DNA of 20,431 bases from Bacteroidota bacterium (GTDB taxonomy: Bacteria; Bacteroidota; Bacteroidia; Flavobacteriales; Flavobacteriaceae): assembly GCA_006227965.1 (NCBI GenBank), contig SBFL01000320.1:1-20431 (forward strand), written 5' to 3'. Positions within the stretch are counted from its first letter, which is position 1. The number at the start of each line of letters is the position of its first letter. The notes under the pieces were generated by a model that ran no database searches, was not told the DNA's origin, and was given only the letters and a program-made list of their open reading frames with translations. This document shows positions 3,691-17,251 of this stretch, piece by piece. Both the position numbers and the translations under genes were made by a program.

Positions 3691-4104
3691 TCAGTGCGGC
3701 AGCCTATCCTTAATCAATCCGTAAATCCACGTTCCGGCCACGGCCCCCAGGATTACGATCAATACGGGCAGGTATCCGGCACCTGTCAGCGTAAACATGG
3801 GGCCCGGACAGGCACCCGAAAGGCCCCATCCAAGGCCGAAAATAAAGCCGCCAATTATGTAGCGTGCTAAACTTTTATCCTTGGGGGTAAATTCGATGGG
3901 GTCCCCGTAAAAGGATTTGATCCTGAATCGCTTGATGGTAGCTACAATGATTACGCCGAATATTACGGCAGTGCCAATGATCCCGTACATGTGAAAGGCG
4001 TCAAACTTGAACATCTCATAAATCCGGAACCAGCTCGATGCCTCGGATTTAAACATGGTAATCCCGAAAAAGATTCCTATCAGTAAATAGCTTAAGCTTC
4101 GCAT
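3691..4104 (-). CDS. DUF6691 / YeeE-YedE C-terminal half, sulfur transporter subunit
   Basis: A 137-residue membrane protein with about four hydrophobic helices. The start at 4104 ([20 protein letters not shown]) is chosen because it gives the family-typical N-terminus and overlaps the stop of the preceding gene as TAATG; reading further upstream only adds sequence that belongs to the neighbour in another frame. The motif GLGWGLSGACPGPMFTLTGA (about 91-110) holds Cys99 and matches the G-x-C-P-G motif of YeeE/YedE thiosulfate transporters. Paired half-size proteins of this kind (called PmpA/PmpB in some sulfide-detoxifying bacteria) are thought to assemble into one transporter for thiosulfate or other sulfane sulfur. 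The direction and exact substrate cannot be told here. It is the last gene of its operon and converges with TauE. Confidence 0.85.
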   Translation of the reverse strand: MRSLSYLLIGIFFGITMFKSEASSWFRIYEMFKFDAFHMYGIIGTAVIFGVIIVATIKRFRIKSFYGDPIEFTPKDKSLARYIIGGFIFGLGWGLSGACPGPMFTLTGAGYLPVLIVILGAVAGTWIYGLIKDRLPH

Positions 4105-4664
4105 TATCCGAAAATTATTGGGTAAAACAAATAGATCATTACCAGGCCGCCCGCAAAGAAGCCGATGACCGCTAACAGGGAGGGCCACTGCAGGTTACTA
4201 AGGCCCGAGATGGCATGCCCGGAAGTACATCCGCCTGCATACCTGGCACCAAACCCCACCAACAAACCTCCCAGTGCCAGAAGCACTATGGCTTTCGGGT
4301 CTGTCCAGGCCCCGCTTCCGTAAAGCTCATCCGGAAGGTACTCGGCCCCTGCACTCTCAAAGCCCAGGGTCTTCAATTCCGCCACAGTATCCGGATTGAT
4401 GTCCACGGCCCGGTCCGGCGTCATGTAGTTCGCAGCTATAAATCCTCCGATGACCGCCCCCAGGACCACAATGAGGTTCCATCGCTGTTCTTTCCAGTCA
4501 AAACGGAAGAATTCAGAGCTGTTGCCGGCCCCGCAGATCGTACAGAGGGTGCGGAGGTTGGAAGACATCCCAAAATTCTTGCCAACCAGCAACAGCAAAA
4601 GCATTGACACTGCTATTGCAGCCCCGGAAACATACCAGGGCCAGGTTTGTGTTATCCAATCCAT
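4104..4664 (-). CDS. YeeE/YedE family N-terminal half, sulfur transporter subunit
   Basis: A 186-residue membrane protein with about five helices. Two cysteine-bearing motifs fit the YeeE/YedE family: [11 protein letters not shown] with Cys41 and Cys44, and [20 protein letters not shown] with Cys146 (about 140-159). In solved YeeE-type thiosulfate transporters, conserved cysteines lining the pore relay the substrate; the two genes here together supply equivalent positions. An unusual polar loop (about residues 82-125) separates the two motif regions. The gene has its own promoter with a perfect-arm TGTAAC/GTTACA operator 60 bp before the start, although sqr lies just upstream in the same direction. 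Stop and next start overlap as TAATG, so both halves are likely made in equal amounts. Confidence 0.87.
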
Positions 4665-4695: not shown

Positions 4696-4740
4696 CAAAA
4701 CAAGCAAATTCAAAGGTTTAACTGTGTAACCTGGGTTACA
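4696..4740 (-). promoter_or_regulatory. Crp/Fnr-type operator and -7 element of the yeeE pair
   Basis: On the minus strand the operator at 4725-4740 reads TGTAACCCAGGTTACA, with both arms exact. Exactly 21 nt later comes TTGTTTTG (4696-4703), which keeps the TTTG part of TAnnTTTG but has T in place of A at the second base. The site starts 9 bp after the sqr stop codon. Confidence 0.8.
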
Positions 4741-4749
4741 AAGCCCCCC

Positions 4750-5997
4750 TTAAACATCCTTTCCCTTGAGCATCTTATTCCAGTACAAATACGGAAGGCC
4801 GTATTTCTTCAGCATCCAGAGCCTCCAGTGTTCCTTGGAGGAATCCCCGATAAGCATCATCTTAAGCTTGGGGTCCGGAATGAAGTTGTTGTCGTAATCG
4901 AACTCAGCCAATACCATTTTGCCGTAATCCGTGACGATCGGACAGGAAGAATACCCGTTATACGTTTTGCTCCCCAGCCCATCCCCTGACTTCATGGCAA
5001 GGATGTTCTGTATCACAACCGGTACCTGCTTGCGGATGGCAGCGCCGGTTTTGGCCGCCGGAATTCCAGCTACATCTCCCAGCCCGAAAACATTCGGATA
5101 GCGGTTGTGCTGGAGGGTATACTTGTCGATATCCAGCCACTTGGCCTCATTTGCCAGGGGAGAATCCTGAATAACCCTGGGCGCCGAGGAAGGGGGTGCC
5201 GTATGCATCATATCGAAATGGATCCCGGTAAGGTTTCCATCCTTTTCAGTCCTGACATCCTTATGGTTGTATTCGTCCTCGTGATCCATAAAGGAGTACC
5301 AGGCTATTTGATTCGGCCCGTCTACCTTTTCCAGCTTATATCCGAACCTCAGGTTGATGTCTTTTTTGTCGACGACCTCCAAAAGGGTTTTTTTGATCTC
5401 GGGTATCCCGAAAATAGTCGTGCCGGGAGTGGCAAAGACTACGGTAGTCTTATCCCGAACCCCGGCTTTGCGGAAATGGCTTTCCGACAGATACATGATT
5501 TTCTGAGGAGCCCCGCCACATTTTATGGGCGTGGGAGGCAGCGTGAAAAGAGCCGTACCTCCCTTAAAGTTCCTTAATACATTCCAGGTGTGTTCGGGGT
5601 CCGTGTAATTACTGCAAACCACACCTTTGTCCATGGCTTCCCCCAGTCCTGGTACCAGGCTCCAGTCATAGACCAGGCCAGGGGCCACTATGAGGTAATC
5701 ATAGGTGATATCACCGCTGGAGGCTGTCTGAACCGTGTTCTGTGCAGGCTTGAACCCCGTTGCCTTGTCCTGAATCCAGGTGGCCCTCTTTGGGATTACA
5801 GAACTCATTGGGCGCCCCGTATTGCCGTAATCATACGTCCCGGCGCCTACCAGGGTCCAGGCCGCTTGATAATAATGAGTATCTGAAGGCTCTATGATAC
5901 CGACTTTCAGGCTTTTATTTTCTTTCAGGAGTTTGGCGGCAGTCATGATGCCTCCTGTCCCTCCACCGATAACCAGGATTTCATAATGTGATTCCAT
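4750..5997 (-). CDS. sqr: Sulfide:quinone oxidoreductase, type II-like (FAD)
   Basis: A 415-residue flavoprotein disulfide reductase homologue. Residues 6-20 (EILVIGGGTGGIMTA) form the FAD-binding GxGxxG turn, and NVFGLGDVAGIP (302-313) is the second FAD motif. Two redox cysteines sit in contexts shared with mitochondrial SQOR: PPTPIKCGGAPQKIMYLSE (Cys160) and YSSCPIVTDYGKMVLAEFDYD (Cys352). This places it with the type II enzymes that oxidise H2S to a persulfide and reduce membrane quinone. The C-terminal stretch WRLWMLKKYGLPYLYWNKML looks amphipathic and aromatic, as expected for monotopic membrane docking. Cys128 (GVVCSNY) is an additional cysteine near where type I enzymes have a third redox cysteine. 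The product would feed the dioxygenase-rhodaneses encoded downstream. The gene stands alone behind its own operator and is divergent from the sulfite dehydrogenase operon. Confidence 0.92.
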   Translation of the reverse strand: MESHYEILVIGGGTGGIMTAAKLLKENKSLKVGIIEPSDTHYYQAAWTLVGAGTYDYGNTGRPMSSVIPKRATWIQDKATGFKPAQNTVQTASSGDITYDYLIVAPGLVYDWSLVPGLGEAMDKGVVCSNYTDPEHTWNVLRNFKGGTALFTLPPTPIKCGGAPQKIMYLSESHFRKAGVRDKTTVVFATPGTTIFGIPEIKKTLLEVVDKKDINLRFGYKLEKVDGPNQIAWYSFMDHEDEYNHKDVRTEKDGNLTGIHFDMMHTAPPSSAPRVIQDSPLANEAKWLDIDKYTLQHNRYPNVFGLGDVAGIPAAKTGAAIRKQVPVVIQNILAMKSGDGLGSKTYNGYSSCPIVTDYGKMVLAEFDYDNNFIPDPKLKMMLIGDSSKEHWRLWMLKKYGLPYLYWNKMLKGKDV

Positions 5998-6023
5998 AAG
6001 TACAGGTTGTTTTTAACAGGAAA

Positions 6024-6068
6024 TAAAGGTACTGCATTCCCCTGCTTATGATTGTAACCTAGGTTACA
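6024..6068 (-). promoter_or_regulatory. Crp/Fnr-type operator and -7 element of sqr
   Basis: The operator at 6053-6068 is the perfect palindrome TGTAACCTAGGTTACA, and symmetry extends three bases on each side to 22 bp. On the minus strand TACCTTTA (6024-6031) follows after 21 nt, one base from TAnnTTTG. The start codon of sqr is 55 bp from the operator. Confidence 0.88.
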
Positions 6069-6168
6069 ATCATTGAGAATATCCCAGAAAAAAGGGGAAT
6101 TCTGATATTTTTCCCAACTGCGCCACCCAACCCCGGAAAAAGAGGTCGGAAAATCCGCGCCCGGGGTT

Positions 6169-6213
6169 TGTAACTTTTGTTACAGTGCAGTTTTTGAAAA
6201 TGCCTTATGTTTA
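6169..6213 (+). promoter_or_regulatory. Crp/Fnr-type operator and -7 element of the sulfite dehydrogenase operon
   Basis: The operator at 6169-6184 reads TGTAACTTTTGTTACA, both arms exact. TATGTTTA (6206-6213) follows after 21 nt, the same spacing as on the divergent sqr side. The start codon is 53 bp from the operator. The roughly 100 bp between this site and the sqr site (6069-6168) shows no other clear element. Confidence 0.87.
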
Positions 6214-6237
6214 TCGATCTTACATAAGTGTACTCAA

Positions 6238-7458
6238 ATGAACCGTCGGAAATTTGTACAGAATTCTGGGCTTACGGCCCTCAGCGCCCTCATTGGAGCA
6301 GAAATTGTCTTTGGCAACGCCATGCCAAAAGGGTATATCCCCCTTGGGCTGCAGGATCCGGACCCCTTTAAGATGTTTGACAAGGATCCGGAAATGTTGG
6401 TCCTTAATGACAAACCGTGGAATATCGAATCCCTGGCCCACCTGCTCGATGACCGGGTAACCCCGAACCGGGCCATGTTTATAAGGAATAACGGGAAGAT
6501 ACCTGAAAAGGTTGACCCCGCTGCCTGGACCCTCACCTTTGATGGCGAATCCGTTCAGAGTCAAAAAACCTACAGTCTTGCAGAACTTAAATCCCGATTT
6601 TCAAAGCACACCTATCAGCTGACCCTGGAATGCGGCGGGAATGGCCGCAGCGAGTTTGACCCCCCGGCCAAGGGGAACCAGTGGAGTGTCGGGGCTGTTT
6701 CTTCTGCAGAATGGACAGGGGTTCGGCTAAGGGACCTCCTGGATGATGTGGGCATCAAATCCAACGCTGTCTATATCGGATACCATGCAGCAGACACCCA
6801 CCTGAGCGGAGATCCGAACAAAGAACCCATCTCAAGGGGCTTCCCGATCGCCAAGGCCATGCAGGATGAAACCCTGCTGGCCTTCCAGATGAACGGAAAG
6901 GACATCCCCCTGGCCCACGGACATCCGCTGCGGCTGGTGGCCGGAGGGTGGCCTGCCTCTGTATCGGGCAAATGGCTGACCGGGATCAGCGTAAGGGATC
7001 AGGTACACGACGGGCCCAAAATGGTCGGCGATTCCTACCGGGTACCCTGCAACCCAGTGGCCCCCGGGACCAAGGTAGCAGATGAGGATATGTGCATTAT
7101 TGAATCCATGCCGGTCAAATCCCTGATTACCTACCCAAAAACAGGGGCTACCATTTCCCATGGAAAAAACATCTCCTTCCGGGGCCATGCCTGGGCAGGA
7201 GAACTTGAAGTTGACACCATGCAATATTCCATCGATTTTGGAAGCACCTGGAAAGAATGCAACCTGGAAGCCCCGGCCAACCGACTGGCCTGGCAGCATT
7301 TCTCAGGGGAAGCGACCTTCCCCAGGAAAGGGTATTACGAACTCTGGGCAAGGGCAATTGACAGCCTTGGAAATGCACAGCCCATGGTACTTCCCGGATG
7401 GAACCCGAAGGGCTACCTCAACAATGCCTGCCACCGAATTGCTGTAAAGGTTGTCTGA
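6238..7458 (+). CDS. Tat-exported molybdenum sulfite dehydrogenase (SorA/SoxC-type, sulfite oxidase family)
   Basis: A 406-residue protein that begins MNRRKFVQNSGLTALSALIG, a twin-arginine signal (RRKFVQ) followed by a weakly hydrophobic stretch, so the folded cofactor-loaded enzyme should go to the periplasm. The molybdopterin domain holds LTLECGGNGRSEFDPPAKGNQW (about 129-150), in which Cys132 is the molybdenum ligand; AVSSAEWTGVRLRDLL and HGHPLRLVAGGWPASVSGKWLTGI are further family motifs. The C-terminal part (about 300-406) matches the Mo-co dimerisation domain, ending near ARAIDSLGNAQPMVLPGWNPKGYLNNACHRI. It has no heme domain of its own; the next gene, overlapping by TGATG, supplies a cytochrome c, as in SorAB. 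Oxidation of sulfite to sulfate is the likely reaction. SoxC is close in sequence, but no other sox gene is present, which favours a SorA role. Confidence 0.88.
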   Translation: MNRRKFVQNSGLTALSALIGAEIVFGNAMPKGYIPLGLQDPDPFKMFDKDPEMLVLNDKPWNIESLAHLLDDRVTPNRAMFIRNNGKIPEKVDPAAWTLTFDGESVQSQKTYSLAELKSRFSKHTYQLTLECGGNGRSEFDPPAKGNQWSVGAVSSAEWTGVRLRDLLDDVGIKSNAVYIGYHAADTHLSGDPNKEPISRGFPIAKAMQDETLLAFQMNGKDIPLAHGHPLRLVAGGWPASVSGKWLTGISVRDQVHDGPKMVGDSYRVPCNPVAPGTKVADEDMCIIESMPVKSLITYPKTGATISHGKNISFRGHAWAGELEVDTMQYSIDFGSTWKECNLEAPANRLAWQHFSGEATFPRKGYYELWARAIDSLGNAQPMVLPGWNPKGYLNNACHRIAVKVV

Positions 7459-7937
7459 TGGATCCGACGGAAAAATTTGAACAGAGCGCAAGGGCAATCT
7501 CCAGGATGATGGGTATTATCTTTGCGATGTTTATGGTGGTAGGGGGCTTTTTGGTTTACATGATGATTGACCCTGCCTTTTCGGCTTTCCGTCCTGCTCC
7601 AGAGGTGGCTGTGGTGGTGGCGACCCCCCTGGAGGATGATTTTGACAAGATTGAAAACGGCGTGCACATAAGGACGGGCTTTATTGAAGGAGAAGGGCTG
7701 ATGACCGTTGTGAATAACTGTACCAATTGTCATTCAGCCAAACTGGTTACTCAGAACCGGATGAATGAAGATGGCTGGAGGGCCACCATTAAATGGATGC
7801 AGGAAACACAAAACCTGTGGGACCTCGGTAAAAATGAGGACATCATTGTAAAATACCTGGCAACCTATTATGCCCCTGAGAAAAAAGGCCGGCGCCAGAA
7901 TTTGGCTGATATCGATTGGTATGTACTGGAAAAGTAG
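7458..7937 (+). CDS. Membrane-anchored monoheme cytochrome c (SorB-like electron acceptor)
   Basis: A 159-residue protein starting at the ATG that overlaps the dehydrogenase stop (TGATG). Residues about 17-36 (MMGIIFAMFMVVGGFLVYMM) form one N-terminal membrane helix without an evident cleavage site, so the rest should be held at the periplasmic face. A single heme-binding motif CTNCH lies at 88-92, followed by SAKLVTQNRMNEDGWRATIKWMQ, a layout seen in cytochrome subunits of sulfite dehydrogenases and in SoxD-type heme domains. A methionine in the WMQETQ region could be the distal ligand; this is inference. Translational coupling with the molybdenum subunit supports a two-subunit enzyme. The last 17 bp overlap the rhodanese gene in another frame. 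Confidence 0.85.
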   Translation: MDPTEKFEQSARAISRMMGIIFAMFMVVGGFLVYMMIDPAFSAFRPAPEVAVVVATPLEDDFDKIENGVHIRTGFIEGEGLMTVVNNCTNCHSAKLVTQNRMNEDGWRATIKWMQETQNLWDLGKNEDIIVKYLATYYAPEKKGRRQNLADIDWYVLEK

Positions 7938-8880
7938 TCTTCTGGCTTTGTTATTGCTCCTTGGGTCCTGCCGGGAAAAAGAAGCGGCCCCTGTGGTGGT
8001 GGATGCCCCAGCGGCCCGGGAGGAAGGATATTTTAACCCGCAGGCCCTGGTAGATGCCGCTGATCTCATGCAGCTGTCGGGAGAGGAACATATCAAAGTC
8101 GTCGACTTCAGGAAGCGGGAGGATTTTGACCAGGGACATATTCCCGGGGCCCTGCCCTTGTGGCGGACAGACATCGAAGATCGGGAAGCTGCGGTGCAAG
8201 GCCTTATCGCCTCCAGGGAAACCATGGAAGCCCTGCTTTCCGAACTGGGCATCTCCAGCGAAGACACTATTGTAATCTACGACGACCGGGGTTGTGTGGA
8301 TGCGGCACGCCTTTGGTGGGTGTTGCAGGTTTATGGCTATGACAAAACGCGATTGCTGAATGGTGGCCTACATGCCTGGGAAAGTCAAAATGGCCCATTG
8401 AATTCCCGGTATATCCCCCCGCCTCACAGCGCCTTCCGGTTTGAAGGTCCGGGCAGGCCTTCCATGAAGATCGGCCGGGACAGTGTCCTCGCCCTGCTGG
8501 GCAATCCGGAATGGATCCTGATCGATACCCGCACTTCGGATGAATACAGCGGGAAAAGGCTGAAAGAAGGTGCCCTGGCTGCCGGGAGGATTCCCGGCAG
8601 CATCAACATTGACTGGGCTGAGGCTGTTCATTTCAACGGGGATATGACCTTCAGGCCTGTGGAACAGCTCAGAAAGAAATACGGCAGGATTCCGGATGAT
8701 CCCGGTCAATCTGTTATTGCCTATTGTCATTCAGGGGTACGGTCGGCGCATACGAGTTTTGTTTTAACCCAGCTGCTGGGATACAACCAGGTCCACAACT
8801 ACGATGGGTCCTGGCTGGAATGGAGTTCCTTTGAAGGGGCTCCGATAGAGAAAGATAGTATCACTTCAATTTTAAAATAG
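7921..8880 (+). CDS. Lipoprotein two-domain rhodanese (thiosulfate/3-mercaptopyruvate sulfurtransferase-like)
   Basis: The start at 7921 (MYWKSSLLALLLLLGSCREK) is chosen because it gives a clear lipoprotein signal with lipobox LLGSC, Cys17; an upstream in-frame ATG at 7870 would bury this signal. The 319-residue product has two rhodanese domains. The N-terminal one (about 38-165) contains VVDFRKREDFDQGHIPGALP and YDDRGCVDAARLWWVL, without a proper active loop. The C-terminal one (about 185-310) has LIDTRTSDEYSG and the active loop AYCHSGVRSAHTSF with Cys269. Family members move sulfane sulfur from thiosulfate or mercaptopyruvate to a thiol. Here it should sit on the periplasmic side, next to the sulfite dehydrogenase, where it could release sulfite from thiosulfate for that enzyme. 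It overlaps the cytochrome gene by 17 bp and ends 2 bp before the next start. Confidence 0.88.
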   Translation: MYWKSSLLALLLLLGSCREKEAAPVVVDAPAAREEGYFNPQALVDAADLMQLSGEEHIKVVDFRKREDFDQGHIPGALPLWRTDIEDREAAVQGLIASRETMEALLSELGISSEDTIVIYDDRGCVDAARLWWVLQVYGYDKTRLLNGGLHAWESQNGPLNSRYIPPPHSAFRFEGPGRPSMKIGRDSVLALLGNPEWILIDTRTSDEYSGKRLKEGALAAGRIPGSINIDWAEAVHFNGDMTFRPVEQLRKKYGRIPDDPGQSVIAYCHSGVRSAHTSFVLTQLLGYNQVHNYDGSWLEWSSFEGAPIEKDSITSILK

Positions 8881-8882
8881 CT

Positions 8883-9764
8883 ATGGAAAAATACCTGGAT
8901 GCTTTTGGAAACGCCTTTATGGGAACCGTGCAATGGACCTGGAAGTCCATCATTTTTGAAGTCCCGTGGTACACGAACTACTTCTGGGGGCTGATCGCGA
9001 TTTCCCTGGTGGTATGGATACTCGAAATCGCTTTCCCCTGGAGGAAGAACCAGTCCATCTTTCGTCAGGACTTCTGGTTGGATGCCTTCTACATGTTTTT
9101 CAACTTTTTCATTTTCGCCATCGTCATCAGCGGGGTGTATAAGGTTCTGGAGGTCTTCTTTGCAGACATAGGTATCACAGCCCAAAGCGTGTCCATAATC
9201 GACTTGGGTGGATGGCCTATGTGGCTTCAGTTGCTGGTCTTTTTTATCGTGCTGGATTTCGTACAGTGGTTCACCCATGTGCTGCTCCATAAATACCCGG
9301 TCCTCTGGAATTTCCACAAGGTGCACCACAGCGTGAAGGAGATGGGATTTGCAGCCCACTTGCGGTACCACTGGATGGAAAACGTCCTCTACAAACCCCT
9401 GAAGGTTTTCGGGGTGATGATTTTAGGAGGGTTTGAGCCGGAGCAGGCCTATATCGTGCACTTTGTGGCCATTGCCATCGGGCACCTGAACCACGCTAAT
9501 ATCAAGCTGACCTGGGGTCCGCTGAAATACATCTTCAACAACCCGGTCATGCACCTGTACCACCACGCATATACCCTGCCAGAGGGTTCTTACGGAGTGA
9601 ATTTCGGGATCAGCCTGAGCCTTTGGGACTATATTTTCAAAACGAATTATATCCCGGAAGACAGCGGCACCATAGAACTCGGATTCCCTGGGGATGAAAA
9701 TTTCCCCAAGGATTTTGTCCACCAGAATATCTACGGATTCGGGAAAACCGCCAAGGAGTCTTAA
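8883..9764 (+). CDS. Sterol desaturase / fatty acid hydroxylase superfamily membrane protein
   Basis: A 293-residue polytopic protein with the histidine clusters of the non-heme di-iron family: HVLLH at 132-136, FHKVHHS at 144-150, HLNH at 201-204 and MHLYHHAY at 223-230. Hydrophobic helices lie near 33-51, 66-88 and 113-130. Family members hydroxylate or desaturate lipids with O2. It is the fourth gene of the sulfite dehydrogenase operon, 2 bp after the rhodanese, so it should be expressed with it. I know no established role for this family in sulfur oxidation; links to lipid modification or to sulfonolipid synthesis, which uses sulfite-derived headgroups in Bacteroidota, are speculation. 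The gene ends 7 bp before the convergent racemase gene. Confidence 0.87.
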   Translation: MEKYLDAFGNAFMGTVQWTWKSIIFEVPWYTNYFWGLIAISLVVWILEIAFPWRKNQSIFRQDFWLDAFYMFFNFFIFAIVISGVYKVLEVFFADIGITAQSVSIIDLGGWPMWLQLLVFFIVLDFVQWFTHVLLHKYPVLWNFHKVHHSVKEMGFAAHLRYHWMENVLYKPLKVFGVMILGGFEPEQAYIVHFVAIAIGHLNHANIKLTWGPLKYIFNNPVMHLYHHAYTLPEGSYGVNFGISLSLWDYIFKTNYIPEDSGTIELGFPGDENFPKDFVHQNIYGFGKTAKES

Positions 9765-9771
9765 GGGCTTT

Positions 9772-10461
9772 TCAGGAATCTCCCCCCATGATAAAATCAA
9801 CCGCCATACGGGCGTGAAGGTCCGTAGTGGCCAGGGTGGGAACCTCAACATCCTCTGCCCTGATCAGCAGGGGCAGTTCGGTACATCCCAGGATGATCCC
9901 TTCAGCACCCCGCTCCCTGAGCCGACTTATTTGTTCTTCGTAAAAATTTCGGGCGGCATCCGTGAATTTCCCGCGGGTCAGCTCAACGGAAACATATCTG
10001 TGGGACTGGGAAACGGCGTGATCCTCAGGAATGATGACCTCAATCCCGTATTTCTTTTTCAGCACCCCGGGTATAAAGTCCCCTGTCATGGTGGGACGGT
10101 TGCCCAGAAGGCCCAGTTTTTTAAGACCAAGGCGGGTTGCCTCCATTCCCGTGGCATCCGCAATATGAAGGATTGGGACTTCTATTTTCGGCTGTACGTA
10201 GTCGTAGACCATGTGGGGTGTATTGGCACAGATGAGGATCGCGGACGCCCCTGCTTCCATGAGCGTGTTGGAAACCTCCAGGTACTTGGCATTAATCCGG
10301 TCCCGGTCTTGTTCCCGCATGATCTCAATGTTGATGCTGTAGAGGATCAGCTCGGGGTTTCCCCGGGTCCCAATGTGTTCCCCCACTCCTTCGTTGATGA
10401 GTTTGTAATAGGCCACTGTGGAATGCCAGGAAGTTCCGCCTATCAATCCCAGAGTTCTCAT
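9772..10461 (-). CDS. Aspartate/glutamate racemase family protein
   Basis: The ATG at 10461 gives MRTLGLIGGTSWHSTVAYYK, the standard N-terminus of this family; another ATG two codons upstream would add only MT. The product is about 229 residues. Both catalytic cysteines are present: ICANTPHMVYD with Cys78 and ILGCTELPLLI with Cys193, along with LGLKKLGLLGNRPTMTGDFI between the two half-domains. The enzymes racemise aspartate, glutamate or broad-range amino acids without cofactor; which one is used here cannot be told. It follows the DUF3365 heme protein by 16 bp in the same direction and is probably co-transcribed. The link to sulfur metabolism is not evident. Confidence 0.88.
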   Translation of the reverse strand: MRTLGLIGGTSWHSTVAYYKLINEGVGEHIGTRGNPELILYSINIEIMREQDRDRINAKYLEVSNTLMEAGASAILICANTPHMVYDYVQPKIEVPILHIADATGMEATRLGLKKLGLLGNRPTMTGDFIPGVLKKKYGIEVIIPEDHAVSQSHRYVSVELTRGKFTDAARNFYEEQISRLRERGAEGIILGCTELPLLIRAEDVEVPTLATTDLHARMAVDFIMGGDS

Positions 10462-10477
10462 AGTCATAAATTTTGGG

Positions 10478-11101
10478 TTAGTTCTCAGGAAAGGCAACCT
10501 TCCACAACCCCCTGAGTTCCCCTGCCGAATACCCCACTGCCCGGTCTTCCGGGTAGCGTTCCTTTATTCCGGAATACACTTCTGGGGTTATTTCCATTCC
10601 CGGACTGCCGTGGCACTGCAGGCAAAGATTATTAGTTACAATGGGATAGTAAACGTGAATCCTGTTCTCCCGGAGTGCCACTAGTCCTTTCGCTGTATGG
10701 CCTTCGGCCAGATCCTTCCTGTATACCGAAAAATACTTCATCTCCCCCTCTGATGCCGCGCTCTGCGGGTTTCGGGGACGGTCCGTTATCCTGCTGATAG
10801 TGGCGCCAAGTTCCCGAGAAAGGCTGTCTGTTATAGCAAGGGCGTTTAGGTTGCAGAATTCAATGGCCGCAGGTGCACCTTCTTTTGAAATTTTTTCCTG
10901 CAGGGTTTTACCCAGGGCAGCCTGAACAGCCATGGCATATTCCAGGCCGGTCTCCCTGTACTGTTCCGTGGTTGCGGTCTGCCCGATCCGGACTGCTGCC
11001 TCCTTCTCCGGGTAGGAGCCCTCCTGCCCTTTCCGGTCAGCTTCCCCCCTGCAGGCAAGCAGCGCAAAGGGCAATGCACAAAGTAGCAGTTCTTTTTTCA
11101 T
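10478..11101 (-). CDS. DUF3365 (Tll0287-like) heme c lipoprotein
   Basis: The ATG at 11101 yields MKKELLLCALPFALLACRGE, a lipoprotein signal with lipobox LLAC (Cys17). The reading frame is open further upstream, but that stretch runs through a terminator hairpin and gives no signal. The 207-residue product carries AIEFCNLNALAITDSLSRELGATISRITDRPRNPQSAA (about 79-116 region), the hallmark of Tll0287-like domains, and one heme motif CLQCH near the C-terminal third (LCLQCHGSPG). The family consists of periplasmic heme proteins thought to sense redox state or carry electrons; no enzymatic role is settled. Its start is only 35 bp downstream of a strong intrinsic terminator, so expression needs readthrough or a promoter that overlaps the terminator. 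Confidence 0.85.
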   Translation of the reverse strand: MKKELLLCALPFALLACRGEADRKGQEGSYPEKEAAVRIGQTATTEQYRETGLEYAMAVQAALGKTLQEKISKEGAPAAIEFCNLNALAITDSLSRELGATISRITDRPRNPQSAASEGEMKYFSVYRKDLAEGHTAKGLVALRENRIHVYYPIVTNNLCLQCHGSPGMEITPEVYSGIKERYPEDRAVGYSAGELRGLWKVAFPEN

Positions 11102-11136
11102 GATGTCCCGATCTGTGTCTGTTGAGAAAAAGGTAC

Positions 11137-11177
11137 AAAAAAAAGAAAGCGGCCCATTTATAAATAAGGCCGCTTTC
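11137..11177 (-). terminator. Strong intrinsic terminator upstream of the DUF3365 gene
   Basis: A perfect 10-bp inverted repeat, GAAAGCGGCC at 11145-11154 and its complement at 11168-11177, encloses a 13-nt AT-rich loop. On the minus strand the hairpin is followed directly by eight T residues (11137-11144). It has no matching T-run on the plus strand. It ends the transcript from the promoter at 11278-11322 and any readthrough from the dioxygenase gene at 11359-12771. Confidence 0.88.
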
Positions 11178-11274
11178 CTCACTAAAAACAATCAACTCAA
11201 CCTTTTAAATATGTTCCAACTGCCCTCTGAGGGCGCGTTGTCTTTCAATCTCAACCGGATCTTTTACAATCTCA
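11137..11274 (-). ncRNA. Candidate regulated small RNA (or attenuated leader)
   Basis: The interval runs from the transcription start predicted from the -7 element at 11278-11285 to the U-tract of the terminator, about 138 nt. No ATG begins an open frame of useful length on the minus strand within it. A short hairpin GCCC-TCAGA-GGGC is visible at 11222-11234, followed by an A/T-rich, probably single-stranded stretch and the terminator hairpin. The presence of a full operator and promoter in front of a stretch without a gene is the main evidence. It may instead be the 5' leader of the DUF3365 gene with premature termination. No similarity to a known RNA family is recognised. Confidence 0.5.
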
Positions 11275-11277
11275 GAG

Positions 11278-11322
11278 CTAAAATAGGTTGTTCTATATTT
11301 CAACACAGTAACATTGGTTACA
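11278..11322 (-). promoter_or_regulatory. Crp/Fnr-type operator and -7 element before a non-coding interval
   Basis: On the minus strand the operator at 11307-11322 reads TGTAACCAATGTTACT, one mismatch to the perfect palindrome, in the last base. TATTTTAG (11278-11285) follows after exactly 21 nt, one base from TAnnTTTG. The next gene start in this direction is 205 bp away, with a terminator between. Confidence 0.78.
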
Positions 11323-11358
11323 CAGACGGAAAATTTTTCCTCCGGCTCCTGATGTGCA

Positions 11359-12771
11359 TCACAAAGTGCTCGGGCAGACATAATCGGTTACCGGCAGCCC
11401 GGCTTCCTTGATGGCATCAAAGCCTCCGGTGACATCCACCAGGTTGTGGATCCCACGGCTTTTCAGGATAGACGCTGCCACCATGCTCCGATACCCGCCC
11501 GCACAGTGCACGTAGAAAACCTCTTCCTTCGGGAAGGTGCTCAGGTAGGTGTTTAAGAAATCAAGGGGCGTGTTTTCAGCATCCACCAGGTGCTCGGACA
11601 GGTATTCACTCTCCTTGCGGACGTCAAAGACATGCACCGCCTTTTCTGATCCGATAAGGGCCTGCAGTTCTTTCGCGCTGATCGGGCTCACGGTGTCGTA
11701 TTCCTTGGAGGCCTTTTTCCATGCTTCAAAACCACCATCCAGGTAGCCAAGGGCATTGTCAAACCCAACCCGGGAAAGACGGGTCACCGCCTCTTCTACA
11801 CGGTCCTTATCGGCTACCAGCAGGATGGGCTGGGCCACGTCGGCCACAAGCGCTCCCACCCAGGGGGCAAAACTGCCATCCAACCCTATGAAAATTGACC
11901 GCGGGATATGTCCTTTGGCGAAATCCTCCTTGCTCCTTACATCCAGCACGATGGCGCCGGTTTCGTTGGCGGCCACCTCAAAACCGTCGGGGTCCAGGGC
12001 CCGGGTCCCGCGCTCCAGGACGAGATCTATATCTTCATACCCCTCCTTGTTCATCTTAACGTTAAGCGGGAAATATTGAGGGGGGGGCAACAGGCCTTCA
12101 GTTACTTCACGGACAAATTCTTCACGTGTCATATCCTTCCTGAGGGCATAATTGGTCTGTTTTTGATTCCCCAGTGTATCCACGGTTTCCTTGGACATAT
12201 TCTTCCCACAGGCCGAACCAGCTCCGTGAGCCGGATAGACGATTATATCATCGGCCAGCGGCATGATCTTCTTCCTCAGGCTGTCGTAGAGGGTGGAGGC
12301 AAGCTGCTCCTGTGTCATGTCGGCTGCTTTCTGTGCGAGGTCGGGTCGACCCACATCTCCCAGGAAAAGGGTGTCCCCGCTGAAGATTGCATGGTCCCTG
12401 CCATCGGCATCCCGAAGCAGATACGTGGTGCTCTCCATGGTATGTCCCGGCGTATGAAGGACAACAATGGTGAGGTCCCCTACTTTAAATTCCTGCCCGT
12501 CCTCTGCGATGATGGCATCATAGCTGGGGTTGGCCAGGGGGCCATAGACGATAGGTGCCCCTGTTTTTTTGGAAAGGGTGACATGCCCGCTGACAAAATC
12601 AGCGTGGAAATGGGTTTCGAAAATATACTTGATATCCGCGTCATCCTGACGGGCGCGCTTGATGTAAGGGCCTACTTCCCTCAGGGGGTCGATGATAGCC
12701 GCTTCTCCATTACTCTCTATATAATACGCTCCCTGTGCCAGGCAGCCGGTATAAATTTGTTCAATTGTCAT
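11359..12771 (-). CDS. Persulfide dioxygenase-rhodanese fusion (MBL fold), copy 1
   Basis: A 470-residue protein. Residues 1-240 form a metallo-beta-lactamase fold of the ETHE1/Blh persulfide dioxygenase type: THFHADFVSGH (53-63) supplies the metal ligands and flanking residues, followed by LHTPGHTMESTTYLL and FSGDTLFLGDVGRPDLAQ, the Fe(II) histidine and aspartate positions. Two rhodanese domains follow. The first (about 255-355) starts with IVLDVRSKEDFAKGHIPRS but has no active cysteine (LLVADKDRVEEA). The second (about 368-460) ends in the active loop VHCAGGYRSMVAAS with Cys423. The expected reaction is oxidation of glutathione or similar persulfide to sulfite, with the rhodanese making or using thiosulfate. 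It is cytoplasmic, with no signal. It has its own operator and lies directly downstream of its paralogue, separated by a terminator. Confidence 0.9.
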   Translation of the reverse strand: MTIEQIYTGCLAQGAYYIESNGEAAIIDPLREVGPYIKRARQDDADIKYIFETHFHADFVSGHVTLSKKTGAPIVYGPLANPSYDAIIAEDGQEFKVGDLTIVVLHTPGHTMESTTYLLRDADGRDHAIFSGDTLFLGDVGRPDLAQKAADMTQEQLASTLYDSLRKKIMPLADDIIVYPAHGAGSACGKNMSKETVDTLGNQKQTNYALRKDMTREEFVREVTEGLLPPPQYFPLNVKMNKEGYEDIDLVLERGTRALDPDGFEVAANETGAIVLDVRSKEDFAKGHIPRSIFIGLDGSFAPWVGALVADVAQPILLVADKDRVEEAVTRLSRVGFDNALGYLDGGFEAWKKASKEYDTVSPISAKELQALIGSEKAVHVFDVRKESEYLSEHLVDAENTPLDFLNTYLSTFPKEEVFYVHCAGGYRSMVAASILKSRGIHNLVDVTGGFDAIKEAGLPVTDYVCPSTL

Positions 12772-12798
12772 AGCGTAAATCCTTGTTTTTATTTAAGA

Positions 12799-12843
12799 CA
12801 AAAATAATCCCCCGGTGTTCCCTCTACAGTAACTCAAGTTACA
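12799..12843 (-). promoter_or_regulatory. Crp/Fnr-type operator and -7 element of dioxygenase copy 1
   Basis: On the minus strand the operator at 12828-12843 reads TGTAACTTGAGTTACT, with a mismatch only in the last base. TATTTTTG (12799-12806), an exact TAnnTTTG, follows after 21 nt. The start codon is 56 bp from the operator. The terminator of the upstream paralogue begins 4 bp away. Confidence 0.87.
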
Positions 12844-12847
12844 AAAG

Positions 12848-12881
12848 AAAAAAAGCCCGTCAACTGAAGCCCGGGCCTTTT
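12848..12881 (-). terminator. Intrinsic terminator of dioxygenase copy 2
   Basis: On the minus strand AAAGGCCCG (12872-12880) pairs with CGGGCTTTT (12851-12859), a 9-bp stem with one G-U pair and a 12-nt loop, followed by a run of T (forward A at 12848-12854). It lies 18 bp after the stop codon of the gene at 12899-14317, so the two paralogues are separate transcription units. Confidence 0.85.
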
Positions 12882-12898
12882 CTATGATATCCTCAACC

Positions 12899-14317
12899 TT
12901 AGAGGAGTGTGGTAGGACAGATGTATTCTGACTTCGGAAGCGAGGTCTCCTTCATCTCGTCAAATCCTCCGGCAATGTCTGCGAAGTTGCTCCAGCCGCG
13001 CTGTTTCAGAATGGAAGAAGCGATCATGCTGCGGTAACCTCCCGCGCAATGCAACAGGAAGGGTTTGTCCTTCGGGATTTCAGCGAGGTGCTGGTTGATC
13101 TCGTTCAGCGGTATGTTTACCGCATCGATCAGGTGCTCGGAGTCGAATTCACTTTTCTTGCGCACATCGATGATCATGGGTAGCTGATGTTTCTCATACT
13201 GCTTCACGACTTCCTGCACAGTTACCCTTTTGGCTGTTTCCACATCTTTGCCGGATTTATTCCAGGTGTCAAACCCGCCCTTGAGGAATCCAAGGGTGTT
13301 GTCATATCCAACCCTGGAAAGCCTGGTTACAGCCTCTTCTTCCCTGTCTTTATAGGTGACCAGCAGGATGGCCTGCTTCACGTCCGGGATCATTTCTCCT
13401 ACCCACTGGGCAAAATTCCCGTCCAGGCCGATATTGATGCTGTTGGGGATAAACCCTTTGGCAAAGTCCTCCGCATTGCGGGTGTCGAGGACCAGGGCGC
13501 CTGTTTCATTGGCCGCAGCCTCAAAGGCCCCGGGGCCCAGCGGCTGGGTTCCGCGCTCCATGATTTTATCAAGGGATTCATATCCCTTGATGTTCATCAG
13601 GACATTTTGCGGAAAGTACCCCGGGGGCGCCGTAAGCCCTGTGAGCAATTCTTTGATGAATTCTTCCTTGGTCATATCCGCGCGCAGGGCGTAATTGACT
13701 TCCTTCTGGTGTCCCAGGGTATCCGTGGTTTCCTTGCTCATCATCTTGCCGCAGGCCGACCCGGCTCCGTGGTTGGGATAGACGATCAGATGGTCCGGCA
13801 ACGGCATGATCTTGTTGCGCAGGGAGTCAAAGAGGTGGCCTGCCAGTTTCTCTTCTGTAAGGTCGGAAACCACGTGCTGTGCCAGGTCAGGACGTCCCAC
13901 ATCGCCTATAAACAAGGTGTCCCCGGTAATGATCCCATGCATCTGATCCTTGTCGTCGATCAGCAGGTAAGTGGTACTTTCCATGGTGTGCCCGGGGGTA
14001 TGGATCACTTTTACCTTATAGTCCCCGATCTCAAAAACCTGCCCGTCCTCAGCGACGATGGCTTCGTATGCGGGCTTGGCGCCCGGTCCGAATACAATCT
14101 CTGCCCCGGTTTTCTTTTGCAAATCCAGGTGCCCGCTGACAAAGTCAGCGTGGAAATGGGTTTCAAAAACGTACTTGATCTCAGCATTGTCTATCTGGGC
14201 ACGGTCAATATAGGGCTGTACCTCTCTCAAGGGGTCGAATACCGCCGCCTCGCCCTTGCTTTCGATGTAGTACGCGGCATGGGCCAGGCATCCTGTATAA
14301 ATTTGTTCAACTTTCAT
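12899..14317 (-). CDS. Persulfide dioxygenase-rhodanese fusion (MBL fold), copy 2
   Basis: A 472-residue paralogue of the next gene, alike along its whole length. The metal motif THFHADFVSGH is again at 53-63, followed by IHTPGHTMESTTYLL and ITGDTLFIGDVGRPDLAQ. The first rhodanese domain (VLDTRNAEDFAKGFIPNSI) also lacks a catalytic cysteine (LLVTYKDREEEA); the second has the active loop LHCAGGYRSMIASS with Cys424. Both copies end in the same type of tail, Y-[VI]-C-P-[ST]-T-L. The copies differ in surface residues and in the linker (about 355-375), so the duplication is not recent. It should be a cytoplasmic iron enzyme acting on low-molecular-weight persulfides. The operator for this gene overlaps the end of the SulP gene, so it can be transcribed both with SulP and alone. 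Confidence 0.9.
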   Translation of the reverse strand: MKVEQIYTGCLAHAAYYIESKGEAAVFDPLREVQPYIDRAQIDNAEIKYVFETHFHADFVSGHLDLQKKTGAEIVFGPGAKPAYEAIVAEDGQVFEIGDYKVKVIHTPGHTMESTTYLLIDDKDQMHGIITGDTLFIGDVGRPDLAQHVVSDLTEEKLAGHLFDSLRNKIMPLPDHLIVYPNHGAGSACGKMMSKETTDTLGHQKEVNYALRADMTKEEFIKELLTGLTAPPGYFPQNVLMNIKGYESLDKIMERGTQPLGPGAFEAAANETGALVLDTRNAEDFAKGFIPNSINIGLDGNFAQWVGEMIPDVKQAILLVTYKDREEEAVTRLSRVGYDNTLGFLKGGFDTWNKSGKDVETAKRVTVQEVVKQYEKHQLPMIIDVRKKSEFDSEHLIDAVNIPLNEINQHLAEIPKDKPFLLHCAGGYRSMIASSILKQRGWSNFADIAGGFDEMKETSLPKSEYICPTTLL

Positions 14318-14351
14318 ATCTCTCCTTTGTTATTGATTAGATTACTTCACA

Positions 14352-14396
14352 CGAAAATAAAGAGGAGACTCCACTCCTTCAGTTACTTAAGTTACA
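14352..14396 (-). promoter_or_regulatory. Crp/Fnr-type operator and -7 element of dioxygenase copy 2
   Basis: On the minus strand the operator at 14381-14396 reads TGTAACTTAAGTAACT; the distal arm is exact, the proximal arm has two mismatches. TATTTTCG (14352-14359) follows after 21 nt, one base from TAnnTTTG. The TAA stop of the SulP gene lies inside the operator. Confidence 0.75.
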
Positions 14397-16125
14397 TATT
14401 GCGCCCGGCAGCCTGGGTCGCGATCTTCGCTTCCATTTCGGACCTCGAACCTTCAGCCCTGCAATAGGTGTAGGCCTGGTACGTGTCTGCAAAGAAGTTT
14501 TCAGGGCCGATCTCGTCAATCAGCCTGCTGTGGTAGAATATGTCCCGGGCAGGGCCTATAGCCCCGGCTATGGCAAAATTGATCCCGTCTTTTTTGAGCT
14601 CCTGTATCAGGGCCCTCAGCATGAAAACCGCGGAGCTGTCTATGTAGTTGATCGCCTCGGCATTCAGTATAATGTATTTCAGGGCATTTCCTTTTTGACC
14701 GACCCGTTTCTGAAGCTGCTCCCGGAAATAGTCCTTGTTCCCGAAAAAGAGCTGACCGTCAAAACGCAGGATCAAAAACAGGTCGGAGTCCTCGGCATCT
14801 TCCGCAAAACGATCCAGGTTCCGGAAATAGTTGGTACCCCGGATTTTGCCCAGGATCGCAATATGGGGTTTTGAAATCCTGTAGACCAGCAAAAGCAGGG
14901 AAAGTAAGACCCCCAGCAGGATGCCTTCCTTGATCCCGAGCCCGAGTGTGAGCAAAAAAGTAACCACCAGCAGTACGAATTCATCCTTGCGGTTTTTCCA
15001 GAGCTGCATGGGGTAATTCAGATCGATGAGTCCGAAAACGGCAACCATGATGATGGAAGCCAGGACCGCGTTGGGCAGGTAATAAAAAGCCGGGGTCAGG
15101 AACAGTAGCGTAAGGCCTACCACGGCGCTGCTCACCAGGGCTGCCAGCCCGGAATGAGCCCCTGCCTGATCGTTGACAGCCGTGCGGGAAAACCCGCCCG
15201 TGGTCGGGTAGGACTGAAACAGGGACCCCACGATATTGGATGCTCCAAGGGCTACCAGTTCCTGGTTCGCATTCACCCGGTTCTCCCCCCTTTTTTCCTC
15301 TACAGCCTTTGCCACGGAAATGGCCTCCATAAATGCGATGAGGGCCAGGGTGAGGGCTATTGGAAACAGCTCCGAAATCCGTGTAATATCAAAGGTTGGA
15401 ACTACCGGAGCGGGAAGTCCGCCAGGGACATCCCCTACGATCCGGACCCCGTTGTTAAACAGACCCAGGAAGTAGACTGCAACCACCCCGATGATGACCG
15501 CTACCAGGGCACCCGGGATTTTGGGGTTGGTTTTTTTCAGGCCCTTGATCAGCACAATTGCACCCAATCCAATACCAAGGGTAATGAGGTTGGTGTCTCC
15601 CACTGTGGCTGCGGCATTGGACAGCAGGGTATGGATCTGGTTGCTCCCCTCAATATCAGTGCCCAGAAGATGTTTTAACTGACTCAGTCCGATTATAATT
15701 GCCGCGGCAGAAGTAAACCCGCTAATAACAGGTTTTGAAAGGAAATTTACCAGGAAGCCCATTCGAAGCAGCCCAAAACCCAGCTGCAGCACCCCCATGA
15801 AAAGCGCCAGAAAAATGGCCATTGAAATGTATTCATCTATGCCGGAAAGGGATAACGCTCCCAGGCCTGAGGCCACCAGCAGGGAATCCATGGCAACCGG
15901 GCCAACGGCAAGCTGGCGGGATGTCCCCATAAGGGCGTAAATCACCTGGGGAATAAGGGCCGCGTAAAGGCCGAATACAGGCGGTAATCCGGCAATCATC
16001 GCATAGGCCATCCCCTGTGGGATCAGCATGATCCCCACGGTAATTCCTGCGGCAAGGTCCCCGGGGAGCCATTGTTTCTTATACGCTGGCATCCATTCGA
16101 GAATGGGAAAAAAACGCTTTAACAT
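14392..16125 (-). CDS. SulP family anion transporter with STAS domain
   Basis: A 577-residue protein from the ATG at 16125 (MLKRFFPILEWMPAYKKQWL); a frame extension upstream would need a TTG start. The motif GDLAAGITVGIMLIPQGMAYAMIAGLPPVFGLY (about residues 22-54) is the SulP signature of TM1-TM2, followed by GPVAMDSLLVASGL and FQSYPTTGGFSRTAVNDQAGA. Twelve or more hydrophobic segments fill residues 20-420. From about 440 the cytoplasmic STAS domain is seen, with ILNAEAINYIDSSAVFMLRALIQEL. Bacterial SulP proteins carry sulfate, bicarbonate or other anions. The setting between the Crp/Fnr gene and the dioxygenases favours sulfate or sulfite, but a bicarbonate carrier cannot be excluded. It starts 34 bp after the crp-like stop and is likely in the same operon. 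Confidence 0.9.
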   Translation of the reverse strand: MLKRFFPILEWMPAYKKQWLPGDLAAGITVGIMLIPQGMAYAMIAGLPPVFGLYAALIPQVIYALMGTSRQLAVGPVAMDSLLVASGLGALSLSGIDEYISMAIFLALFMGVLQLGFGLLRMGFLVNFLSKPVISGFTSAAAIIIGLSQLKHLLGTDIEGSNQIHTLLSNAAATVGDTNLITLGIGLGAIVLIKGLKKTNPKIPGALVAVIIGVVAVYFLGLFNNGVRIVGDVPGGLPAPVVPTFDITRISELFPIALTLALIAFMEAISVAKAVEEKRGENRVNANQELVALGASNIVGSLFQSYPTTGGFSRTAVNDQAGAHSGLAALVSSAVVGLTLLFLTPAFYYLPNAVLASIIMVAVFGLIDLNYPMQLWKNRKDEFVLLVVTFLLTLGLGIKEGILLGVLLSLLLLVYRISKPHIAILGKIRGTNYFRNLDRFAEDAEDSDLFLILRFDGQLFFGNKDYFREQLQKRVGQKGNALKYIILNAEAINYIDSSAVFMLRALIQELKKDGINFAIAGAIGPARDIFYHSRLIDEIGPENFFADTYQAYTYCRAEGSRSEMEAKIATQAAGRNM

Positions 16126-16159
16126 GGTCAATAATCTTTTACGTTACCCGGAATCACTC

Positions 16160-16792
16160 CTAAAGGTCCAGGATCTTGAGGTAGTTCCTGTGAATCTCTA
16201 TCTTTCCCATCTGCTCCAGTTTTTTGAGCAGACGGGAGATAACCACCCTGGAACTGTGCAGGTCATAGGCGATTTCCTGATGCGTGTTCCTGATGATGGA
16301 ATCCTCATTTACCCGGGCCTTTTCCCTGAGGTAATTCACCAGCCGTTCATCCATATTCAGGAAAGCAATATTGTCGATGGTCTGCAACATCTCATTGAGC
16401 CGGTTGTTATAGCTCTCGAAGACAAAATTCCGCCAGGAGCGGTATTTGGCGGTCCATTCCTCCATTTTGCGGATCGGGATCATGATGAGTTTGGCATCGG
16501 TCTCGGCAATCGCCCGGATTTCGCTCTGGGACTGACCCATGCAGCAACTCATGGTCATCGAACAGGTATCCCCCCGCTCGAGGTAGTACAACAGGAGTTC
16601 ATCCCCGTCCGGATCTTCCCTCAGGATCTTGATTACCCCTGAAATCAACAGTGGCATCCCCTTAATATATTCCCCGATCTCCATAAGCTTGTGTCCTGCC
16701 TGTACTTCCCTGAACGTACCTACCTGGGCAATCTCGTTGATCAGGGCTTCTTCGAACTGATGGCCGTAACTGGCCTTTAATTCCTGTATCAT
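16160..16792 (-). CDS. Crp/Fnr family transcription regulator with a cysteine cluster
   Basis: A 210-residue regulator. The N-terminal cyclic nucleotide-binding-like domain covers about 15-125 (AGHKLMEIGEYIKGMPLLISG marks the barrel). A winged helix-turn-helix covers about 135-210, with NTHQEIAYDLHSSRVVISRLL at 169-189 as the DNA-recognition segment. Residues 77-84 (CSMTMSCC) hold three cysteines in the loop where the classical cAMP phosphate cassette would be; the cassette itself is absent. Regulators with this cysteine pattern are common in Bacteroidota, and a role in sensing reactive sulfur or redox state is an inference. The start overlaps the DUF983 stop as ATGA. The operon carries its own TGTAAC operator, so self-regulation is likely, and it is the best candidate activator for all seven sites in the window. 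Confidence 0.9.
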   Translation of the reverse strand: MIQELKASYGHQFEEALINEIAQVGTFREVQAGHKLMEIGEYIKGMPLLISGVIKILREDPDGDELLLYYLERGDTCSMTMSCCMGQSQSEIRAIAETDAKLIMIPIRKMEEWTAKYRSWRNFVFESYNNRLNEMLQTIDNIAFLNMDERLVNYLREKARVNEDSIIRNTHQEIAYDLHSSRVVISRLLKKLEQMGKIEIHRNYLKILDL

Positions 16793-17187
16793 ACGCGCTG
16801 TTTAGCTTTTCTTGCGACGGTATTGTCGTAACTAAAAAAGAAATTCGCCCAAATCAATTTGGACACGGCTCCTATATAGGGCATCAACAGGACCAGGGCG
16901 GTAACAATAGAGCCGAATATGCCTCCGATTCCAAGGTCCAGTCCAAAAATCAGGATCAGCAAATACACGGCAACCGCCACCGCCACCCCCACGCCATAGG
17001 ACACGTACATAGACCCGTAATAAAAGCTGGGTTCAATCTTGTATTTCAATCCGCATTTGGGGCACCTCTCGCGCACCCTGTTCATGCTGCCCAGGTTATA
17101 AGGGTGTTTGTGCAGAAAAGGGCCCTCGTGGCAGCGCGGGCACTTCAGCAGCAGGATGCTGTAAAGTTTTGAGCCTTTTCCAATCAT
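16789..17187 (-). CDS. DUF983 family zinc-ribbon membrane protein
   Basis: A 132-residue protein starting at the ATG at 17187 (MIGKGSKLYSILLLKCPRCH); an in-frame TTG at 17202 would lie almost on the predicted transcription start and is rejected. Two CxxC pairs, CPRC and CPKC, form a likely zinc ribbon in the first 50 residues, followed by the DUF983 signature YKIEPSFYYGSMYVSYG. Two hydrophobic helices cover about 70-115. The function of the family is unknown. It is first in the operon DUF983-crp-SulP and overlaps the regulator gene by ATGA, so it should be made together with it. A role in signalling to the regulator is possible but not shown. Confidence 0.85.
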   Translation of the reverse strand: MIGKGSKLYSILLLKCPRCHEGPFLHKHPYNLGSMNRVRERCPKCGLKYKIEPSFYYGSMYVSYGVGVAVAVAVYLLILIFGLDLGIGGIFGSIVTALVLLMPYIGAVSKLIWANFFFSYDNTVARKAKQRV

Positions 17188-17206
17188 AATTCCAACCTTC
17201 AAGATA

Positions 17207-17251
17207 CAAAATTAAGCCAAGGCAGTCTAGCAAATTGTGACTTTGGTTACA
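17207..17251 (-). promoter_or_regulatory. Crp/Fnr-type operator and -7 element of the DUF983-crp operon
   Basis: On the minus strand the operator at 17236-17251 reads TGTAACCAAAGTCACA; the distal arm is exact and the proximal arm has one mismatch. TAATTTTG (17207-17214), an exact TAnnTTTG, follows after 21 nt. The start codon of DUF983 is 48 bp from the operator, which leaves a leader of roughly 16 nt. Confidence 0.85.

Follow-up and report, generated by a model that had tools for sequence, protein, structure and literature searches.

What controls the sulfide-oxidation genes that lie together in this locus, and do their promoters belong to one regulon? We addressed this question for a 20,431-nt stretch of Flavobacteriaceae DNA (contig SBFL01000320.1, assembly GCA_006227965.1; hereafter the window), in which an initial annotation had described seven promoters of one design: an operator TGTAAC-N4-GTTACA, then exactly 21 nt, then a TAnnTTTG-like box facing the downstream gene. 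The same stretch encodes a Crp/Fnr-type regulator at 16160-16792. Quite probably, the seven elements are promoters of a single sulfur regulon, at which this protein binds as a class II activator. Computation establishes the layout itself, how far it is conserved, its joint occurrence with the regulator gene and the set of targets.

A composite element with a fixed 21-nt spacing

All seven operators were found at the positions claimed for them (Table 1). When each operator is read towards the gene it serves, its distal half is always TGTAAC, and the proximal halves are GTTACA, GTTACT, GTAACT or GTCACA; compared with TGTAAC-N4-GTTACA, three of the seven 16-mers are perfect, three have one mismatch and one has two. 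Exactly 21 nt past each operator, towards the gene, lies a box (TTGTTTTG, TACCTTTA, TATGTTTA, TATTTTAG, TATTTTTG, TATTTTCG, TAATTTTG) that matches TAnnTTTG exactly at two sites and with one mismatch at five; the proposed layout holds at seven of seven sites.

Taken alone, the 16-mer operator is weakly significant in the window (nine matches at ≤3 mismatches, with 4.5 expected; 5 of 100 shuffles reach nine). Searched as the composite TGTAAC-N4-GTTAC-N22-TANNTTTG, the element matches the window 1, 6, 7 and 9 times at up to 0, 1, 2 and 3 mismatches, respectively (two of the nine are the reverse side of palindromic sites), and 400 order-2 Markov sequences had none with ≤2 mismatches and averaged 0.02 with ≤3. 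The whole assembly (2.28 Mb, 74.8% complete) has nine matches at ≤2 mismatches, seven of them inside the window. One of the two others precedes a thioredoxin gene (contig C333), and a thioredoxin gene also lies downstream of a composite site in another genus (L195); the second precedes a frame that ends with its contig (C301) after 56 residues and has no Pfam match; it looks similar by eye to the start of L099, but is not claimed here to encode a redoxin. At ≤3 mismatches the assembly gives 17 matches versus 9 for a reversed control pattern, and matches of this grade are therefore uninformative.

The spacing was also recovered in a test that did not assume the value of 21. We took 302 strict operators from 80 regulator-centred loci (1.53 Mb, both orientations) and looked for the box at every offset from 0 to 60. 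At offset 21 it lay behind 224 operators at ≤1 mismatch and behind 114 exactly; at the other offsets it occurred at most 8 times at ≤1 mismatch, with 3.4 expected per position, and at most 3 times exactly. Across the family, the composite at ≤1 mismatch is present in 158 of 199 Flavobacteriaceae genomes, with 593 matches versus 11 for the control. On the strength of the spacing peak, the family-genome counts and the Markov controls we reject a chance origin. The annotation had named chance frequency and a lack of conservation in relatives as grounds for abandoning the motif; the composite stands far above shuffled and reversed controls, and its layout is kept in near relatives as well as across the family.

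The near relatives comprised four Robiginitalea-type loci (L018-L021) and one genome of the same genus (L136), with sites searched at ≤3 mismatches. Every placeable orthologue of the DUF983-regulator operon, MBL-rhodanese, Tll0287, sorA and sqr promoters keeps the composite; in L020, whose gene calls are poor, position served to assign the first sites, and the stretch ends before reaching sorA and sqr. Between orthologous promoters, identities amount to 354/354 in the distal half, 331/354 in the proximal half and 323/354 at six box positions, and to 29% in the spacer (320/1121; 19 positions compared). Because the sites were chosen by motif, the high identities are partly a matter of construction; what informs is the low value for the spacer. 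L136 has no separate yeeE promoter, and its yeeE comes directly after sqr. The same locus has a single operator (16782-16855) with boxes 21 nt away on both sides, between divergent sorA and sqr, each of which has its own site in the window; single operators flanked in this way by two boxes likewise lie between divergent genes at L178 3670-3743 and L180 11043-11116.

A transcript-start map of Flavobacterium psychrophilum places the TAnnTTTG box at -12 to -5 (PMC9723704). With these coordinates and the 21-nt gap, the operator would span -49 to -34 with its centre at -41.5, close to the -41 suggested earlier and at the position that defines a class II site. E. coli CRP and FNR act as class II activators. 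When the core GTAAC-N4-GTTAC is oriented by its box, T is the outer distal base in 220 of 239 cases. At the mirror position, -34, there is A in just 53 cases but T in 152, and 149 have G at -33. We read this as a loss of symmetry at the proximal operator end in favour of TG at -34/-33, a remnant of the -33 element.

Distribution and target genes

A good regulator match is found in 153 of the family genomes, and 146 of these carry the composite. The remaining 46, of which 12 carry it, comprise 20 listed and 12 unlisted genomes lacking a regulator match, plus 14 whose match is weak. Among 296 genomes drawn from the phylum (hand count), the composite occurs in 30 of 30 from the family, 1 of 6 from the rest of the order, 19 of 37 from the rest of the class and 16 of 223 from the rest of the phylum; the control pattern matches in 11 of the 296. 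The composite belongs to the class Bacteroidia and is near background outside it. We inspected 12 stretches from ten genomes, nine of which lie outside the family but inside the class or, for G469, the order. Sulfur clusters carrying composite sites were seen in G457, G348, G352 and G200; a regulator match with the cysteine pattern Cx5CC, described below, fell within the stretches of G457, G200 and G237, and none fell inside those of G205 and G469. The regulator gene sits among the composite targets, both in the window and in most of the inspected stretches. The idea of one regulon with a fixed geometry and a class II position has been upheld by the genome, relative and co-occurrence tests.

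Targets were collected in two ways. The regulator-centred set (80 loci and the window; 291 sites at ≤1 mismatch per part, 280 with a downstream frame and 11 without) is biased, because its loci are centred on the regulator. Best BLAST matches of the 280 frames to window proteins were to the metallo-β-lactamase (MBL)-rhodanese proteins in 89 cases, DUF983 in 29, sulfide:quinone reductase (SQR) in 23, YeeE in 18, the regulator in 16, SulP in 15, the hydroxylase in 10, Tll0287 in 6 and SorA in 4. The 70 frames without a match were sorted by sequence strings into 31 TauE-like, 12 peroxiredoxin-like, 9 encoding a small MKKNMG protein and 18 others, with one TauE and one peroxiredoxin label confirmed by Pfam. 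The genome-wide set (30 loci and 39 stretches around listed matches of G143, G154, G027, G107, G101 and G172, with L227 excluded) holds 66 sites, 63 of them with a downstream frame. Here Pfam finds MBL-fold 13, rhodanese 12, TauE 8, OEP 6, DUF983 6, SulP 5, AhpC-TSA 5, Sulf_transp 3, cytochrome c 3, Tll0287 2, Pyr_redox_2 2 and Oxidored_molyb 1, besides others (25 of 40 families listed). MBL-fold, TauE, SulP, Sulf_transp, Pyr_redox_2 and Oxidored_molyb together make up 32 of the 63 targets, and several others are thiol-redox genes of the redoxin and thioredoxin families. The expectation that the targets are sulfur genes, with a further site before the regulator's own operon, was borne out both in the genome and in the loci of relatives.

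DUF983 genes with a composite also occur far from the regulator (6 of 63; L189, L143-type; in G143 the site lies at 1.24 Mb of C1 and the regulator at 2.82 Mb), and DUF983 therefore looks like a regulon member itself, more than a neighbour of the regulator. TolC-type OEP genes stand behind composites in L102, L118, L121, L205, L209 and L217, an exporter being an unexpected target in a sulfur regulon. Genes for cytochrome bd oxidase subunit I lie downstream of composites at L035 8861-10216 and L178 13733-15070; bd oxidases tolerate sulfide.

In the window itself, an Asp/Glu racemase-family gene (9772-10497) follows the Tll0287-like gene, an order shared by L018, L019 and L021. A fatty-acid-hydroxylase-family gene (8883-9764) lies behind sorAB and a rhodanese gene, and its relatives are directly downstream of a composite at 10 of the 291 sites. 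As the listed SorA, SorB and rhodanese frames overlap (7398-8880), it is uncertain at which codons SorB and the rhodanese start. The 3' end of the SulP frame extends into the operator of MBL-rhodanese B.

Table 1. Composite promoters and genes of the window
Feature	Position	Strand	Details or basis
Composite promoter, YeeE-type pair	4696..4740	-	operator 4725-4740, box 4696-4703
Composite promoter, sqr	6024..6068	-	operator 6053-6068, box 6024-6031; also before sqr in L021, L136
Composite promoter, sorAB	6169..6213	+	operator 6169-6184, box 6206-6213; also before sorA in L018, L021, L136
Composite promoter, Tll0287-like gene and racemase	11278..11322	-	operator 11307-11322, box 11278-11285; also in L018-L021
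Composite promoter, MBL-rhodanese A	12799..12843	-	exact match; operator 12828-12843, box 12799-12806; also in L018-L021
Composite promoter, MBL-rhodanese B	14352..14396	-	operator 14381-14396, box 14352-14359; also in L018, L019, L021 and, by position, L020
Composite promoter, DUF983-regulator-SulP operon	17207..17251	-	operator 17236-17251, box 17207-17214; also in L018-L021, L136
DUF6691/Sulf_transp protein, second of pair	3691..4188	-	domain match
YeeE-type Sulf_transp protein, first of pair	4104..4664	-	domain match
Sulfide:quinone reductase, type III-like	4750..5997	-	below NCBIfam cut-off
SorA-like sulfite dehydrogenase, catalytic subunit	6238..7458	+	below NCBIfam cut-off
SorB-like cytochrome c subunit	7398..7937	+	below NCBIfam cut-off
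Tll0287-like protein	10478..11191	-	domain match
MBL-fold and rhodanese protein A, probable persulfide dioxygenase/sulfurtransferase	11359..12771	-	domains; function predicted
MBL-fold and rhodanese protein B, probable persulfide dioxygenase/sulfurtransferase	12899..14317	-	domains; function predicted
SulP-family transporter, third gene of regulator operon	14392..16131	-	domain match
Crp/Fnr regulator, 210 aa, proposed binder	16160..16792	-	Pfam, conserved Cys77/Cys83/Cys84, predicted fold
DUF983 protein, first gene of regulator operon	16789..17202	-	Pfam

The regulator and its candidate signal

The protein encoded at 16160-16792 belongs to the Crp/Fnr family: it carries PF00027 (cNMP_binding) and PF13545 (Crp-type helix-turn-helix), both above cut-off, and the 50 structural matches listed for its predicted fold are all Crp/Fnr-type entries. 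It shares 97% identity with a protein that bears the label Robiginitalea sp.; no close relative came up in the PDB, where 3dv8 matches best (E 9e-19). Its cysteines are exactly three, Cys77, Cys83 and Cys84, in the segment CSMTMSCC (within the longer CSMTMSCCMGQ), which aligns with the cAMP-contact region of CRP. E. coli CRP contacts cAMP via Glu72 and Arg82 of its phosphate-binding cassette; in a profile alignment the regulator has Met and a Lys/Gln position at these contact sites, unlike a cAMP-dependent CRP. Nor does it have the N-terminal cysteine cluster that holds a 4Fe-4S centre in FNR, its own cysteines being at 77, 83 and 84 only. The Cx5CC pattern is found in 120 of 120 homologues among the matches listed, and 103 of the 113 profile matches from the collected loci have it too (some of these being one gene in overlapping loci); an alignment of 51 sequences shows Cys77 throughout and Cys83 and Cys84 each at ≥90%. 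The sensor domain thus has conserved cysteines of the kind expected of a sulfane-sulfur sensor.

That this protein binds the seven sites is very likely, and that it acts there as an activator is no less so; the cysteine trio, at the place where CRP holds cAMP, may on balance sense persulfide or polysulfide. A regulator dimer would bind TGTAAC-N4-GTTACW centred at -41.5, stand in for most of the -33 element and bring RNA polymerase to the TAnnTTTG box between -12 and -5. The genes turned on would be those for sulfide oxidation (SQR), persulfide oxidation (the two MBL-rhodaneses), sulfite oxidation (SorAB) and sulfur transport (the YeeE pair and SulP), as well as the regulator's own operon and the thioredoxin gene outside the window.

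Several observations weigh against this picture. The -41.5 position, as computed, depends on box coordinates taken from another genus. Seven of the 153 good-match genomes lack the composite at ≤1 mismatch and 12 of the 46 others have it, in a comparison where the cut between good and weak was set after the values had been seen and the co-occurrence counts ignore relatedness; in one genus, a site precedes an MBL-rhodanese gene and the best regulator match found there is weak (G127, 3e-56). Non-sulfur targets occur in relatives, namely cydA, hemN, cytochromes and the TolC-type OEP genes (6 of 63). Ten of the 113 profile matches lack the full cysteine trio, and the structure model of the regulator is least certain at the cysteine segment. 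Six of these ten form a weaker group (E 1e-44 to 1e-53) that retains the first cysteine only. Five members of this one-cysteine Crp/Fnr group (L030, L041, L045, L050 and L074) are encoded ~4-9 kb from the regulator; the sixth is in L115 (5 of 6 near the regulator).

The main rival keeps the regulon and the activator and changes the signal: the cysteine trio might be a thiol-redox or a metal or iron-sulfur site that reports oxygen or redox state. We consider this unlikely, if still a serious contender. It would account for the oxygen-linked cydA and hemN behind composites in some relatives and for the frequency of peroxiredoxins and thioredoxins among the targets, and three clustered cysteines could bind metal; however, the target families that come up most often deal with sulfide, persulfide and sulfite, and all cysteines of the regulator fall at residues 77-84, unlike the N-terminal ligands of FNR. 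It is improbable that the protein is instead a repressor sitting at -41.5 and released by its signal. In its favour, several sulfane-sulfur regulators are reported to repress (ArsR-type SoxR/sHdrR, the MarR family, PerR), while others, e.g. OxyR, activate. Against it, a fixed 21-nt gap suits contact with the polymerase and is unnecessary for blocking, and an operator that replaces most of the -33 element would leave the promoter weak without help. Binding of the sites by another Crp/Fnr protein is quite improbable. The genome does encode one other Crp-type helix-turn-helix protein above cut-off (C57), by sequence a response-regulator fusion, and the assembly is incomplete; yet presence of the motif tracks the window regulator across the family, and the regulator gene lies inside the regulon with a site before its own operon.

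A resemblance to HcpR had been noted in the initial annotation, and it stands for the DNA and fails for the protein. The operator core equals the published HcpR2 consensus, GTAACnnnnGTTAC (PMC1274295), and one Bacteroidia hcp promoter, in G426 (L176 7460-7504), carries an exact composite with 21 nt to the box. The hcp promoter of G418 (L177, upstream of 6007-7638) has the same core with the box 22 nt off (hand count). There a Crp/Fnr gene, spotted by eye and confirmed by Pfam, adjoins hcp, and its product, the one hcp-linked protein compared, gave no phmmer match to the window regulator. A search with the regulator profile found no relative beside hcp at E ≤1e-3 in 30 short hcp loci; hcp (PF03063) was not found in the window's own, 74.8%-complete genome; and among 71 phylum genomes with a PF03063 match none is from Flavobacteriaceae. 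The unmatched G418 protein, the 30 short hcp loci with no relative at this threshold and the lack of an hcp match in the incomplete genome led us to reject HcpR membership at the protein level. A nitrosative-stress regulator of HcpR type, with the sulfur genes as a side effect, would explain the common core and the G426 composite, but in view of these results, and of targets that are sulfur genes, it is very improbable.

Should the persulfide-sensing activator be real, one short pattern would predict a sulfur regulon across a large bacterial family; DUF983, Tll0287-like and TolC-type genes would be tied to sulfur handling; the exchange of cAMP for cysteines in a CRP fold would become testable; and a sulfane-sulfur sensor would be seen to work as an activator on that fold. 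In a sediment study, heterotrophs including Bacteroidota are reported to oxidise sulfide, and Bacteroidota sqr and pdo transcripts are up after NaHS (PMC12345210). We found no regulator named for sulfide oxidation in Bacteroidota, and no description of a regulator of this kind, in the open-licence literature searched, which does not prove absence from print; the sulfur-responsive activator thus seems undescribed.

Comparison with known regulators

HcpR2-type regulators share with the window system the operator core GTAAC-N4-GTTAC and the Crp/Fnr architecture, and differ in target, which is hcp for HcpR and sulfur genes here. HcpR uses heme and answers nitric oxide (NO) in Porphyromonas gingivalis (PMC12750200) and Bacteroides thetaiotaomicron (PMC13370916). 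Since the two hcp promoters have the operator core of the window sites, the one in G426 with the 21-nt gap as well, and the G418 protein is unmatched, two distant Crp/Fnr proteins appear to read one DNA code in Bacteroidia, seemingly with a common geometry. The full proposal, of widespread Bacteroidia Crp/Fnr activators in which the cAMP cassette is swapped for a Cx5CC that is persulfidated or polysulfide-bridged, and which run a class II sulfide/persulfide/sulfite regulon with a DNA code shared with the distant NO sensor HcpR, could equally prove right or wrong.

With E. coli CRP and FNR the window regulator has the fold in common, and probably also the operator centre at -41.5; it differs from them in the replacement of the cAMP segment by CSMTMSCC, in the absence of FNR-like N-terminal cysteines and in the half-site. 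The Crp/Fnr protein 3DV8 of Eubacterium rectale, its best match by sequence profile and by fold, has cysteines at the places of Cys77 and Cys83, but Ile at that of Cys84, and is 25% identical in a structural alignment.

CstR and FisR also sense sulfane sulfur. Further sulfane-sulfur regulators of other folds are reported to include SqrR, BigR, SoxR/sHdrR (ArsR type), the MarR family, PerR and OxyR. Such sensors likewise control sqr, persulfide dioxygenase, rhodanese or YeeE-type genes, and they sense by means of cysteines, as we propose for the window regulator; they differ from it in fold, and many of them are repressors.

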